Positions 35,817-41,087 of a DNA stretch of 42,114 nt are shown piece after piece. Each line of letters begins with the position of its first letter. Positions within the stretch are counted from its first letter, which is position 1. The notes beneath the pieces were generated by a model. It was not told the DNA's origin. It ran no database searches and saw only the letters and a list, made by a program, of their open reading frames with translations. The stretch is from a virus, in the IMG/VR virus record IMGVR_UViG_3300042881_001396, positions 1-42,114 of that record. One strand, written 5' to 3'. Position numbers and translations under genes: made by a program.

Positions 35817-38800
35817 TCAGGCTTTACTATACTTCAATATCTTACTCTGTGTATTGTTGCTAGAGTCAAGTTTATCAATCACAGCATCTAGTTTGGTTGC
35901 CATCATATCCATCATTGATTGATTTATGCTAGCAAGTTCTTTGAATATTTCTGGATCGTTACTTCCTACTGCGGCTTCTTTGTCTTGTAATTGTGCTTGT
36001 ATTTCTGTATTAGTTTTCTTACCCAATTCTGCTAAGAAACTGTTAGGATCTAGTGGCACGATCATCTCATTACCGTGCAACGTTGCTGGATACCCAGTTT
36101 CTGGACCCATTGCTAATCCGCCTGCATCGGCACTAACTTTTGTTGGTATTTTACCTGATCGCAATGCTTCTGCAAGAGTCTTTCCTTCAGTAGCCTGTTT
36201 ATGACTCGACGTTTCACCGTGACCATATACCATGGACGCGCCGAATTTTGACATCAAACTTTTACCTAAATCAAATCCTGATTTTAATTGTGCTGTGCTT
36301 ACGTCAGAGTCGTCTTTTGCTACTAAAGAAATACTTACAGAGTTACTATTAGTAAGTCCAGGTTGCTTATCAGTTTTTCCTGCATGCCATGCTTTTTGAT
36401 CTCCAGGAACAAATTCTGTGACAGAACCATCTTGATCAACCATGTAATGGTAACCTAGACCTCTAGCCTTAAGTGTCGATATAGCACTTTGTAATCCTCT
36501 ACCACCTGTATGATGAACTATGATACCATCTGTCTTTTTTCTAGGTCCTTTTGCCGCATCTCCTGCATCAGCCGAAGCCATTTTTACTTCGGCTGCAGGG
36601 GCGCCGCCTCCGCCGCCTGCTTTTCCTTCAACGTCATCAGATGGTGGTTTTGCAGAATCTTTTGATCCGCCACCTAATAATTTAGAAGTATATCCGGAAA
36701 CCATGTCCATGAATCCACCACCGGATGACGATGAAGACACACTTACTCCTCCACCACCGCCACCTGCAGCCGCGGCTGGTTTGCTACCGCCACCACCACC
36801 ACCACCGCCACCTGCAGCCGCGGCTGGTTTGCTACCGCCACCACCACCACCGCCACCACTTGCTTTAGCAGGGCTTGCGGCTGTAGCAGGTGCGCCAGCA
36901 CCACCTGATTTAGCCATTCCTAATGCAGACGTATAGGCTGCAAATGCTTGTCCTAATTTTAGTGCTTTGTCTGGATCGACATCAAGTTTAGTAAACTTGA
37001 CAAATTTACCCATGACATCATCGCCGCCAAACATTTTGACGATGCCACCAACAATATTATCTGCGGCATTCTTTAATTCACCGCCGCCTTTAAATTCTGA
37101 TAGTGCTTGACTGAAGTATACAAATGCTTGTGCATTATTTTTAACGTTATTAGGATCGCCTATGTTTATCTTACTAAATTTTGAAAACTTAGTAAAGGCA
37201 GCATCATTATCACCGCCTATAAATGAAACTACATTAGACCTTATTGCGCTTGCTATACTAGTATCAGCACCGCCTTTATATTTTGACATTGCTTCATTAA
37301 ATGTTGTAAACGCTTCTGCATTTTCTTTAACCTTTTTAGCATCAATATTAAGTTGACTAAATTCTTGTAATTTGTCAATAGGTGTGGCACCACCAAAGAA
37401 TTTAGTAATGCCTTCAGACATATTGCCTATTATGCCCCCGATGCCAGCGGCTACGCCACCGGCACCGAATACTGCCATGCCTTTACCAATTTCGTATATA
37501 CCTTCACCGGTAGCTTTTAATTTCGTTCCGTCAAGTTTAGTAAATGACTCTAAACCTTCACTCAATGTAGGCAATGCTTTGCCCATGATCCATGTAGCAC
37601 CTGCAAGACCTGCACCTACTGCGGCTATTGCTACACCAAACCCTGCGGCACCTAACGCTACTTTAGGATTTGCGAATGCAGCCAAACCTTTGGCTGCACC
37701 TTCAAGCATGTTACCGCCACCTTGACCTAATCCTTGAACTATACTACCTGCTTTACCCCCACCTGCGCCACCTGCCGCAGGCTGAACCACTCCGCCGGTA
37801 CCAGGCAACCCTCCACCTGCACCGCCACCAAACATACCCATGGCTTTATTCATCATGCCGCCACCGTCACCGGTAGACAACATGCCTCGTTTAGCCATAA
37901 CACCCAATGCTATCGCAGCCGCTCCGGCTGCGGCTGTTAATCCTATCAATCCTAATTTAAATGGGTTAAGTGCAGTGACTAAATCTTCTACTGCGCCGGT
38001 GGCTTTTATATTAGCCTCTTGCAATTTTGCTCTTGCATCTGCTTCAGGATCTTTACCTTCTTTACCTGCCGCCTCACGTCTTGCTTTTTGTGCTTTGGCT
38101 TCTTCTTCGCCGTTGACGCCCATCTTATTACTGATTTGCGCTAATTCTTCAGCAGTACCGGTAAAGTATCTGTTAGAGATTTCTTCACTGATAGCCATCT
38201 GACGACCAGATGACTCTACACGATCTCCAAACTTCTTAACATATTCATCTTGTAATTTTTGTGCGGCTACAGTAGCATCACCGCCTTCTTTGACAGTTTT
38301 CTGATATTCTTGTACTGCTTCAGTCATGCCAAGCATTGACAATTGCTGTGCATTTTTACCGGTGATGGCACCGGTAGTCATCAATTCACGTACACCATCT
38401 TGCAATGCTTTGGGTTGCCCAGCCAATGCTGTCATTGCATCATTACGGCCTTTTATTTCTTTTTCTAATGCTTTTGCACCTGCTTCATCACCGGCGGCTC
38501 TTAATCTGTTAGCCTTCAACTGATCTTGCATGTTAACAATTTGCATCTGACGATGCATCAACTGTTCTTTTTGCTGTTCTTTTAATGCCTTGACATCTTT
38601 ACCAGTAAGTGCAGCCAAATCTAACAATTGAGTTTGATAATCTATACTTGCTCTTCTTAGTTTGTCTCTATCTCCTAATTCATTTCTGATAGAACGTCCC
38701 GAACTTGCTTGCATCTGTAAGTAATCAGCAGTGCCTTGCATCATCTCTTCTTGGTTTATACCAAGACGACTCATCATCTTACGTTCTTCGTCAGTAGCCT

Positions 38801-39482
38801 TGATTAACTGTGCAAATTCTTTTTGTGCGGCACCTGCACTAGTGCCCAATCCCATGACGCTTGAACCCATGCCTTGCAAGGGTTTGATCATGCGTCCTAT
38901 TGTTTCAGCATTAAGATCGGCTTCGCGAGCCATCTTTTGTATAGAGTCAGTAGTGTGTGCGCCGGCACCACCTAATTTATTAAGTTGATCCTTACTTTCC
39001 AAATATGCTTGACTTATCTTTAGATTGGCTTCCATCAGCACAGTGACTCCTTTGACGAGTCCACCTATCACTGTACCTAACGGGCCAAATGCTCTGCCTA
39101 AACTTAGTGCGGCATCGCCTGCGCTACTTAGAGCATCATTAAAATTAGTGAGTTTTACATTGGTATCCAGTATACCTTTACCAAAAGATCCTAAGGCATT
39201 TTTAGCATCATCAGAGGCTTTCTTCATGTACATCTCTGATTCTGCTAATTTTTTCTGCGCTTCTATTCTGGCTAGTTCTGCCTCTGTAAGTCCTTTCGCA
39301 CTTCTAGATAGTCCATCTAATGCTTTATTAGTCTGTGAAGTCTGATCAGATTGCGCTTTCTGACTTCTAGTTGCGTTAACTGCAACTCCTGAAAAAGTAG
39401 CCATGTTGGTAGACAGGTCTTGCATAGTCCTGTTCAAATTGCTTATAGCATCATTCAGTTCATCTATGTTTATGTCTGCCAT
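35817..39482 (-). CDS. Tape-measure-like protein with C-terminal N-acetylmuramoyl-L-alanine amidase domain
   Basis: A 1221-residue protein. Residues 1-500 are helical and Lys/Glu/Gln/Met rich with coiled-coil character, as in tape measure proteins. Hydrophobic Ala/Gly stretches (about 505-530, 600-635 and 670-690) are typical of tape measures that meet the inner membrane. Poly-Gly linkers (GGGGGGGGSKPAAAAGGGG) lie around 900-960. Residues about 984-1110 form an Amidase_2/PGRP-like domain: IIVHHTGG (His990), GLGYHYMVDQDG, AWHAG and VYGHGETSSHKQATEGK (His1088). After it, SGxGLA-type GPETGYPATLHGNEMIVPL is a common tape measure C-terminal motif. The predicted role is to set tail length and cut peptidoglycan during DNA entry. 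T4 gp29 (590) lacks such a domain. It heads the minus-strand operon with gp20. Confidence 0.85.
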   Translation of the reverse strand: MADINIDELNDAISNLNRTMQDLSTNMATFSGVAVNATRSQKAQSDQTSQTNKALDGLSRSAKGLTEAELARIEAQKKLAESEMYMKKASDDAKNALGSFGKGILDTNVKLTNFNDALSSAGDAALSLGRAFGPLGTVIGGLVKGVTVLMEANLKISQAYLESKDQLNKLGGAGAHTTDSIQKMAREADLNAETIGRMIKPLQGMGSSVMGLGTSAGAAQKEFAQLIKATDEERKMMSRLGINQEEMMQGTADYLQMQASSGRSIRNELGDRDKLRRASIDYQTQLLDLAALTGKDVKALKEQQKEQLMHRQMQIVNMQDQLKANRLRAAGDEAGAKALEKEIKGRNDAMTALAGQPKALQDGVRELMTTGAITGKNAQQLSMLGMTEAVQEYQKTVKEGGDATVAAQKLQDEYVKKFGDRVESSGRQMAISEEISNRYFTGTAEELAQISNKMGVNGEEEAKAQKARREAAGKEGKDPEADARAKLQEANIKATGAVEDLVTALNPFKLGLIGLTAAAGAAAIALGVMAKRGMLSTGDGGGMMNKAMGMFGGGAGGGLPGTGGVVQPAAGGAGGGKAGSIVQGLGQGGGNMLEGAAKGLAAFANPKVALGAAGFGVAIAAVGAGLAGATWIMGKALPTLSEGLESFTKLDGTKLKATGEGIYEIGKGMAVFGAGGVAAGIGGIIGNMSEGITKFFGGATPIDKLQEFSQLNIDAKKVKENAEAFTTFNEAMSKYKGGADTSIASAIRSNVVSFIGGDNDAAFTKFSKFSKINIGDPNNVKNNAQAFVYFSQALSEFKGGGELKNAADNIVGGIVKMFGGDDVMGKFVKFTKLDVDPDKALKLGQAFAAYTSALGMAKSGGAGAPATAASPAKASGGGGGGGGSKPAAAAGGGGGGGGGSKPAAAAGGGGGGVSVSSSSSGGGFMDMVSGYTSKLLGGGSKDSAKPPSDDVEGKAGGGGGAPAAEVKMASADAGDAAKGPRKKTDGIIVHHTGGRGLQSAISTLKARGLGYHYMVDQDGSVTEFVPGDQKAWHAGKTDKQPGLTNSNSVSISLVAKDDSDVSTAQLKSGFDLGKSLMSKFGASMVYGHGETSSHKQATEGKTLAEALRSGKIPTKVSADAGGLAMGPETGYPATLHGNEMIVPLDPNSFLAELGKKTNTEIQAQLQDKEAAVGSNDPEIFKELASINQSMMDMMATKLDAVIDKLDSSNNTQSKILKYSKA

Positions 39483-39528: not shown

Positions 39529-39536
39529 TATTTATA
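39529..39536 (-). promoter_or_regulatory. Perfect T4-type late promoter octamer for the tape measure operon
   Basis: The minus strand reads TATAAATA, an exact match to the T4 late consensus, ending 46 bases before the ATG at 39482. It lies 6 bases from the plus-strand octamer, so both operons could be switched on together at late times. Confidence 0.7.
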
Positions 39537-39572: not shown

Positions 39573-40397
39573 ATGGACAACAACCCACTAAGACAGTATT
39601 TCCGTAGACCAGCAGTACATTTTAAACTACCTAGCGGGGGCAAAGGATACTCACCCGGGGTATTAGATATGCCACCTAACGGTGAGATTCCAGTTTATCC
39701 TATGACTGCTATCGATGAGATCACTGTAAGAACTCCTGACGCATTGTTCAACGGCGCGGCTGTTGTAGACTTGATCAAGAGTTGCGTACCAAGTATTAAA
39801 GATCCATGGCAAATTAATTCAAACGATTTAGATGCTGTATTGATTGCTATCAGAGCCGCAGGTGGACAACAGCAATTAGAGATCAGCACACAGTGCCCTA
39901 AATGTCAGAATGAATCTACTTATGGCTTGAACCTTGTAGCCGTACTATCACAATTAAAGCACGGCGACTATGATACTGAATTAAAAGTAAATGATCTGAA
40001 AATAAAATTTAGACCTCTTTCTTATAAAGAAATGAATGAGGCCGGGTTAGAGCAATTTAAGATACAAAAGGCTTATGGCGACTTAGATAAGATAGAGAAT
40101 GATGATGACCGTAACAAAAAGACACAGGAAGCAGTACGTGTAATTACGGAAACTACAATGAAAATCATTTCAACAACTGTTGAATATATCGATACGCCCA
40201 CTACTAGAGTTGAAGAAAAACAATTTATTGATGATTTCTTGCATAATTGTGATGGAAGTGTTTATATTGCTATACGTGATTATAATTCCCAACTCAAGGT
40301 CAGCACAGAATTAAAACCCTTAGACATCAAATGTGACAACTGCGCACACGAATACGTTCAGCCTTTCACGTTGAACGCCAGCGATTTTTTCGGCTGA
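39573..40397 (+). CDS. T4-type baseplate hub assembly protein (gp26/gp51 type)
   Basis: A 274-residue protein of the T4_baseplate kind. It starts MDNNPLRQYFRRPAVHFKLP with SGGKGYSPG close behind; VYPMTAIDEITVRTPDALFNG (split by family blocks) and VVDLIKSCVPSIKDPW are typical. Two CxxC pairs, CPKCQNES near residue 108 and CDNCAHEY near 255, probably bind one zinc. In T4, gp26 and gp51 are needed to build the baseplate hub around the tape measure but are absent from finished virions, so a chaperone role is likely. Which T4 gene it matches cannot be fixed without a search. The stop TGA at 40395-40397 is preceded by the heptamer T TTT TTC in the frame needed for a -1 shift into the next reading frame. 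Confidence 0.85.
   Translation: MDNNPLRQYFRRPAVHFKLPSGGKGYSPGVLDMPPNGEIPVYPMTAIDEITVRTPDALFNGAAVVDLIKSCVPSIKDPWQINSNDLDAVLIAIRAAGGQQQLEISTQCPKCQNESTYGLNLVAVLSQLKHGDYDTELKVNDLKIKFRPLSYKEMNEAGLEQFKIQKAYGDLDKIENDDDRNKKTQEAVRVITETTMKIISTTVEYIDTPTTRVEEKQFIDDFLHNCDGSVYIAIRDYNSQLKVSTELKPLDIKCDNCAHEYVQPFTLNASDFFG
40385..40391 (+). promoter_or_regulatory. Candidate -1 ribosomal frameshift site T TTT TTC
   Basis: In the zero frame the hub gene reads GAT TTT TTC GGC TGA. The heptamer fits the X XXY YYZ rule with the right phase. A shift back by one base reads TTT TTT CGG CTG AAA and enters the downstream frame with no stop until 40619. A possible short stem CGGCT (40391-40395) with AGCCG (40420-40424) lies directly after it. 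Confidence 0.6.
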
Positions 40398-40621
40398 AAC
40401 TTCTTACTGCTAGCCCTGAAGCCGTACAGAAGTATATTGAAAGTTTAGAAAAAGAAACAGAGGGCATACGTAAGGCAGCACTCACCTTGGCTTGGTATAT
40501 GAGAGGTGGTGCTACTTATGAGGATGTCCTTAACATGTCTACTTTTGAACGTGAATCCATAAGCAAACTCGTTGAAGAACATATGGAAATCACAAAGAAG
40601 ACACAACTTCCATTTTTCTAA
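40394..40621 (+). CDS. Short conserved tail-assembly reading frame without ATG start
   Basis: This frame encodes KLLTASPEAVQKYIESLEKE and TEGIRKAALTLAWYMRGGAT, ending KKTQLPFF with TAA at 40619-40621. The WYMRGG(A/S/T)-YED and KKT-LPFF pattern is remembered from short proteins that follow the hub gene in T4-like phages. Upstream the frame is open back to a stop at 40334 but contains no ATG, GTG or TTG before the conserved part; the only candidate is CTG at 40394, overlapping the hub stop as CTGA, with no Shine-Dalgarno sequence. The likely routes are a -1 frameshift at 40385-40391 giving a fused product of about 347 residues, or termination-reinitiation at CTG (75 residues). Lambda G/GT and P2 E/E' show the same fused-chaperone design near tape measure genes. 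Confidence 0.8.
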   Translation: MKLLTASPEAVQKYIESLEKETEGIRKAALTLAWYMRGGATYEDVLNMSTFERESISKLVEEHMEITKKTQLPFF

Positions 40622-40705: not shown

Positions 40706-41087
40706 AATCTTTTTATTAAGGGAATCATATTGCCGCCTTAGAGTCCATGGTAGTGCTATTCAGCACTACCATTGGAAAAAGCACATTGCCATGCCCTATC
40801 ACCCATGTCGTCTGTTCCCCGACATACTAGCCCTATCGCTGTATATCGCCACCGGTTGCCCTATAAAGTTTATGGGACTGTAGTGAGATACTGTTATATA
40901 TCTCGGCAACGCATGTTCTATAATCGCAAGACAAAGTAGATTATAGACTCATTGAGGGTTCGCAAACCTGTCGATTGCCCTCTCGGTATTCCGTAGATGT
41001 TACTCTACGCTTACTCCAGAATCTGACGGCACAGCACTATCTGTACAATCTCAAGGAGGGTCGAGCACCTCGACCAAACAAATTGTT
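40706..41087. ncRNA. Hairpin-dense non-coding interval; candidate structured RNA, strand unknown
   Basis: About 380 bases between convergent genes with no reading frame above a few dozen codons. Stems seen: 11 bp ATGGTAGTGCT/AGCACTACCAT (40747-40772); ATGTCG/CGACAT (40805-40825); GTTGCC/GGCAAC (40855-40860 with 40905-40910) enclosing GAGATA/TATCTC (40885-40904) and a weak ATAA/TTAT stem, hence a possible three-way junction; CTATAATC/GATTATAG (40918-40946); GAGGG/CCCTC around 40954-40982; CGTAGA/TCTACG near 40992-41010; GGTCGAG/CTCGACC (41059-41075). The motif GCCCTAT recurs three times (40793, 40830 and 40858 regions). It is not recognised as tRNA, tmRNA, RNase P RNA or a group I intron. The density of stems is unusual for spacer DNA. 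Confidence 0.5.

Follow-up and report, generated by a model that had tools for sequence, protein, structure and literature searches.

The two-length tail proteins of phage lambda provide a useful reference for the locus considered here. Gene G of lambda gives a short form, gpG, and a low-level -1 extension near its 3' end gives gpGT; a passage of a 2016 review describes this G-T frameshifting as a conserved feature of phages with long tails, "except T4" (PMC5009743). As cited in excerpts of two papers (PMC10885494; PMC12846349), Vladimirov, Gautam and Davidson (2022) described gp26 and gp51 as the tail assembly chaperones of T4-like phages. With reference to the same work, the relevant part of the PRFect paper mentions some T4-like phages that carry one short gene plus a longer, fused one in place of frameshifting, and that of the Adele paper mentions poly-T frameshift signals in T4-like TAC genes. 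A passage of a paper on P1 assigns gp26 and gp51 proposed roles as chaperones or cofactors (PMC9024508), and an excerpt of a paper on a jumbo Xanthomonas phage speaks of a single tail assembly chaperone and not of a frameshift (PMC11273794). The TAC genes of Vandenendeviridae and Andersonviridae, as presented in part of another paper, share with the present locus a poly-T slippery site ending TAC-N and an open -1 frame, but they belong to other phage families and have a GTTTTT motif (PMC12846349). Going by these excerpts, frameshifting of the G/GT type, including its occurrence in T4-like phages, is already published; no description of the present site was found in the literature searched, which covers few subscription papers.

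The site lies in a 42,114-nt stretch of viral DNA that was analysed over its full length and is referred to as the window. It is very probable that the gene in question is the tail assembly chaperone gene of a jumbo-type T4-like phage, and that it gives a short and a long form by means of -1 frameshifting. The observation on which the original prediction was built is correct, and its interpretation is mostly so. T4 itself has two paralogous genes, both of the same family, of which gp26, the counterpart of the short form, ends near a Phe-Phe pair and carries no heptamer, whereas the long form, gp51, runs into a further tail; in the window, one gene would make both. The cyanophages S-PM2 and P-SSM4, as well as KVP40 (annotated as gp26 plus a "gp51" ORF), have the same heptamer and the same -1 arrangement.

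The junction and its heptamer

The zero-frame gene of the gp26 type (39573-40397, plus strand) encodes a product of 274 amino acids and ends AGC GAT TTT TTC GGC TGA. The heptamer T_TTT_TTC occupies 40385-40391 in phase with this frame and the stop TGA stands at 40395-40397, 3 nt past it, just as had been noted when the site was first described. The claim that the -1 frame is open across the site and has no ATG, GTG or TTG with which to begin also holds: the extension (40391-40621, plus strand) comprises 76 codons and a stop (40619-40621), with its earliest TTG at 40487 and its earliest ATG at 40499. Most ribosomes would terminate at the TGA at 40395, giving a 274-residue short form like T4 gp26, and a minority would slip back one base on U_UUU_UUC, both tRNA-Phe re-pairing from UUU-UUC to UUU-UUU, and continue as FF-RLKLLTASPEAVQ... 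into a long form, like T4 gp51, that has a helical domain at its C-terminus. The predicted long product has 349 residues (273 + 76) and not the approximately 347 first estimated, while the size given for a free product starting at the CTG at 40394, 75 residues, is correct. What the sequences show is the heptamer with its phase and conservation, coding selection on the -1 frame, a covarying stem in the clade and membership of the gp26/gp51 family; the occurrence of slippage, its efficiency and the chaperone role of the products are inferred.

The junction was compared in 28 IMG/VR relatives, 11 named jumbo phages, 80 cyanophage-type IMG/VR loci and named phages of the T4 superfamily (of 62 phage records found, 12 were examined). 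At 85% identity these 130 loci, the window among them, reduce to 100 representatives, and to 99 once L016, a fragment of the allele carried by the window, is excluded. Also outside the 99 are Rhodothermus phage RM378 (L062), which has a +1/-2 frame, the T4-type two-gene loci (L052, L063, L145-L154 and L160-L162), and L155 and L157, which are copies of KVP40 and 121Q; L040 (CM1) is counted via L061. A phased T_TTT_TTN is present at the junction in all 99 representatives, whether of the window, jumbo, cyanophage, rhizobial or KVP40 type, and its last base is C in 93, T in five and G in one. The codon before the two phenylalanines has T as its third base in 99/99, across seven residues (S, N, D, A, H, R and Y), and TTT invariably encodes the first Phe (99/99), against a background of 782 TTT and 373 TTC. 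Away from the junction, the remaining 32,163 codons of 128 such genes contain 14 phased T_TTT_TTN; the 22 genes of the window hold three in 12,602 codons, the heptamer at 40385-40391 included. Since the same arrangement recurs in 99 representatives, a sequencing error as its cause was discarded.

A second set of loci was retrieved through a 19-mer from the core of a candidate structured RNA located downstream (see below), which is found in 107 IMG/VR stretches, 80 of which were examined. These yielded 61 junctions by a strict ORF criterion and 67 by a looser one, and T_TTT_TTC followed by a -1 frame of 78 codons (counted from FF) is present in 67/67; six contigs belong also to the first set (L188, L220, L222, L229, L236 and L253). 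The alignment across relatives that the original prediction had called for thus finds the slippery run kept in every junction counted. Among the 13 loci of the second set without a counted junction, 12 have less than 570 nt 5' of the RNA; in the other one, L218, the junction frames read DFFG followed by a stop, and FFRLRLL. In this locus an extra ORF of more than 200 codons stands between the extension and the RNA, and the C-terminal end of that ORF also precedes the RNA in L216.

Outside the 99, T4 gp26 ends GAG TTC TTT GAG, and the T4-type two-gene phages have no slippery site. Two PF12322 genes were found in T4 and in five of six other T4-type genomes; the third match in the sixth (G005) comes from a gp51 homologue at 125062-125666 that is split into two parts (PF12322 positions 1-126 and 134-219), and the split may be a sequencing error or a real break. 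In RM378, the single exception among the compared relatives with one copy of the gene, the gp26-type gene ends TCC TTT TTT TGG (approximately 2020-2043), a run of seven T after which the open frame, for some 70 codons, is +1 (equal to -2) and not -1, so this site may represent a different type of recoding. A PF12322 match was looked for in S-TIM5 and none was found; this phage thus gives no information on the site.

Candidate stimulators and alternative origins of the second frame

In the clade of the window, a putative stem, which the original prediction did not include, begins 7 nt past the heptamer, with its 5' arm at 40399-40404 and its 3' arm at 40428-40433 (both plus strand), and it is the likely stimulator of slippage there. 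Over 41 distinct relatives of the second set, its six pairs are formed in 238 of 246 cells, compared with 94-161 when the stem is slid as a control, and changes on both sides of a pair number 15, against a shuffle mean of 3.4 (none of 2000 shuffles reached as many). Individually, 22 of the 41 have a stem with p < 0.05 relative to synonymous-codon shuffles; Fisher values on these tests were set aside, given that they treat related sequences as independent. The window's stem taken alone is not significant (z -1.36; p 0.48). In a mixed alignment of 14 rows, the stem is paired in 64.3% of cases versus 55.0% in shuffles (0/500 as high), though shifting the partner by 2 columns gives a higher covariation score. 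Only over the 41 distinct members does the covariation of the stem become convincing, and this same comparison is what points to a stimulatory element at the site. In a sister subgroup a stem GCCUCCU/AGGAGGC folds well (L013, L019 and L021), but it lacks covariation support over the 14 rows and is absent from L014 and, by eye, from L017, and it was set aside as a stimulator.

Among the jumbo-type representatives, 11 of 23 have some stem of such spacing with p < 0.05 (10 bp in Atu_ph07, 11 bp in XacN1), as do five of 22 loci of the cyanophage type. The latter have another candidate: a Shine-Dalgarno-like motif (GGAG, GAGG or AGGA) 6-18 nt 5' of the heptamer is present in 69 of 87 cyanophage-type loci, a set that was not dereplicated, and in none of the 23 jumbo types. 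Mean pairing of the motif peaks at 7-9 nt, and the Glu codon within it is GAG in 62/79 cases versus 500/1850 elsewhere. The two types differ in that the cyanophage type has this motif upstream and the window's clade a covarying stem on the 3' side. In the 55 nt downstream, folding falls below a z of -2 in 14/29 cyanophage types (mean z -1.89) and in 7/23 jumbo types; since the cyanophage types fold better than shuffles in this region, they may use both stimulators.

These elements bear on the question of where the frame is changed. If RNA polymerase added or dropped a U within the T6 run, the ribosomes would read a mixture of mRNAs normally and no slippage in translation would be needed. This origin finds some backing in the presence of at least six T at every counted site, in the T7 of five representatives and in the RM378 run, whose open frame is +1/-2. 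However, the run is one of only six T followed by C in 93 of the 99, six T being probably too few for efficient polymerase slippage, and both the covarying stem at a spacer of 7 and the upstream motif of the cyanophage types fit ribosomal slippage instead. We regard transcriptional slippage as very improbable.

A second possibility is that the -1 frame is translated on its own, by reinitiation or independent initiation, from the CTG that overlaps the stop in the window and from an ATG elsewhere, and that it gives a free small protein. The CTG start, put forward in the original prediction as the alternative, is not kept among relatives. The expectation that relatives would also lack a start holds in part, as the absence is common without being general: of 23 jumbo-type representatives, 15 lack an ATG, GTG or TTG in the -1 frame through codon 10, and PA5oct lacks one across 75 codons, but the other eight have one by codon 10 and an ATG stands some five codons past the site in many loci of the cyanophage type, where annotators have placed separate genes. 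The end of the stop codon wanders among the representatives from 3 to 36 nt past the heptamer, yet conservation starts at FFR, and the jumbo types have no Shine-Dalgarno-like motif 6-18 nt 5' of the heptamer. Because the heptamer is conserved and no start is, reinitiation is rejected as the main reading and is judged very improbable, more so than a slip of the polymerase. Least probable of all is that there are simply two separate genes and that the heptamer reflects a requirement for Phe-Phe, which is conserved in the protein and kept by T4 gp26 (GAG TTC TTT) without the heptamer, because such a requirement does not account for TTT as the invariable first Phe codon, nor for a T before it across seven different residues, nor for the absence of the heptamer from T4, in which the long form has its own gene.

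With -1 ribosomal frameshifting as the preferred reading, the arrangement at the level of sequence is that of an X_XXY_YYZ site, namely a phased heptamer and an open, selected -1 frame without a conserved start of its own, and that of two isoforms which share their N-terminus by frameshift, in the manner of lambda G/GT.

Relation of the two predicted products to gp26 and gp51

The zero-frame product belongs to the family of gp26 and gp51. It matches Pfam PF12322 (T4_baseplate) with E 3.3e-16 and 60.1 bits, against a curated cut-off of 24.5, and phrog_150 (baseplate hub) with E 7.9e-19 over profile positions 4-232 of 282. Both T4 proteins match PF12322, and in phrog_150 gp26 covers positions 14-235 and gp51 positions 13-280, and therefore gp51 corresponds to the long form. 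The AlphaFold model of the short form (pLDDT 83) has as its best viral match, at TM 0.88, a structure named "Baseplate hub assembly protein, bacteriophage T4-like". As for the TAC fold, no solved structure matched the window's short form: a Foldseek search of the PDB gave nothing at E ≤ 0.001, and the best Z was 8.5 over 55 residues.

Lambda gpG and gpGT are absent from the virion, which counts against the chaperone reading given the hub and structural labels carried by gp26-type proteins. The record of phage CBB labels its gp26-type protein "structural protein", and according to a 2010 review the placement of gp26 in the hub is backed by genetic studies.

The extension evolves as a protein in the -1 frame. 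Among 14 window-type sequences, pairwise differences at positions 1, 2 and 3 of the -1-frame codons number 2592, 1581 and 4022, respectively, and over 78 codons none of the 14 has a stop in the -1 frame, while the zero frame has 4-9. The conserved block starts at the invariant FFR and is gapless in the 13 window-type rows of the alignment. The model of the extension is all-helical (pLDDT 76), and its fold search gave no match at E ≤ 0.001.

Its relation to gp51 is better seen in other phages. The -1 extension of S-PM2 matches phrog_150 at positions 233-281 (E 7.5e-7), the match of the window's zero frame having ended at 232, and that of P-SSM4 does so only at E 0.027; the extensions of 121Q, Atu_ph07, Phosso and the window have no match to this profile, and the window's extension matched no named family. 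Profile alignments (hhalign) were made between nine gp51 proteins and virtual fusions consisting of the zero frame plus the -1 frame. With 23 fusions of the cyanophage, KVP40 and rhizobial types, gp51 aligns end to end and continuously through the junction (245 columns, 99.5%, E 2e-22); with 20 fusions of the window and jumbo types the alignment is discontinuous, with 55 zero-frame columns (76.5%) and a second match of 32 columns in the tail (10.8%). The tail of gp51 taken alone matches the cyanophage-type extension at 97.6% (E 3e-12) and, more weakly, the window/jumbo-type extension at 77% (E 2e-5). The likeness of the small ORF of KVP40 to the gp51 C-terminus had been remarked earlier by its annotators. 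The assignment to the gp26/gp51 type contained in the original prediction therefore stands well for cyanophage-type extensions; that the window's own extension corresponds to the gp51 C-terminus is moderately suggested by these profiles, the link being weaker than for the cyanophage type.

Surroundings, evolution and meaning of the gene

Past the extension, and before a convergent gene, there is a conserved stretch of approximately 340 nt without a long ORF (40738-41078, folded as the plus strand). The whole 466-nt gap that contains it has a folding z of -5.27 relative to shuffles, and the consensus is a closed, multi-branched structure in which 21 of 93 predicted pairs show changes on both sides in at least one of five sequences (two of these are almost the same across the element). 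A comparison with Rfam gave nothing for it at E up to 10. A hit to SNORD105, under the gathering score of that family, was ignored. The nearest ORF upstream of the RNA is the gp26-type gene in 35 of 42 distinct loci. This stretch is a candidate for a new structured non-coding RNA.

On the other side, the gene at 35817-39482 (minus strand), divergent from the gp26-type gene, encodes 1221 amino acids with Gly/Ala-rich stretches of low complexity. The idea that this neighbour is the tape measure gene was not confirmed: its sole recognised domain is Amidase_2 (residues 982-1091), and it is best described as a tape measure candidate. Ten other proteins of the window were compared with tape-measure families, with no match at E ≤ 0.001; in phiM12, the product of the gene two places past the extension ORF weakly matches tape-measure families (E 1.8e-5). 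The divergent intergenic gap contains TATAAATA, which we take to be the T4 late promoter core, at 39529-39536 (minus strand), one of only two occurrences in the window, where 4.8 are expected by chance.

A tree of 50 rows places the T4-type proteins, nine gp26 and nine gp51, on one side of a branch with support 97/91, across which are the 32 rows of the frameshift type, and gp51 forms one group (100/99). This topology fits a duplication into gp26 and gp51 in T4-type phages. The order of events is only suggested, because the root is a midpoint root, some branches are long, KVP40 joins weakly (84/43) and gp26 does not form one group. The history that we would put forward, which falls a little short of probable, is that the T4 superfamily retained the heptamer throughout and swapped its stimulators (the Shine-Dalgarno-like motif in the cyanophage and KVP40 types, the stem in the jumbo-type clade of the window), and that the T4-type phages gave up frameshifting through a gene duplication that produced gp26 and gp51. 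The downstream folding of the cyanophage types, described above, speaks against a clean exchange.

By analogy with lambda gpG and gpGT, the ratio between the short and the long form would serve the assembly of the tail or hub: the short form would bind the tape measure, and its longer counterpart would recruit the tube or hub. In RaK2, PA5oct, Atu_ph07, 121Q, CBB and BF (L033, L031, L029, L034, L035 and L039, respectively), the extension is unannotated or appears as a separate hypothetical protein, with starts that differ from one phage to another, and the stretches of these six phages show no joined CDS. The finding means that the jumbo phage records inspected omit the second half of the gene or list it as a separate protein, and that the ratio of short to long form is directly testable in T4 itself.
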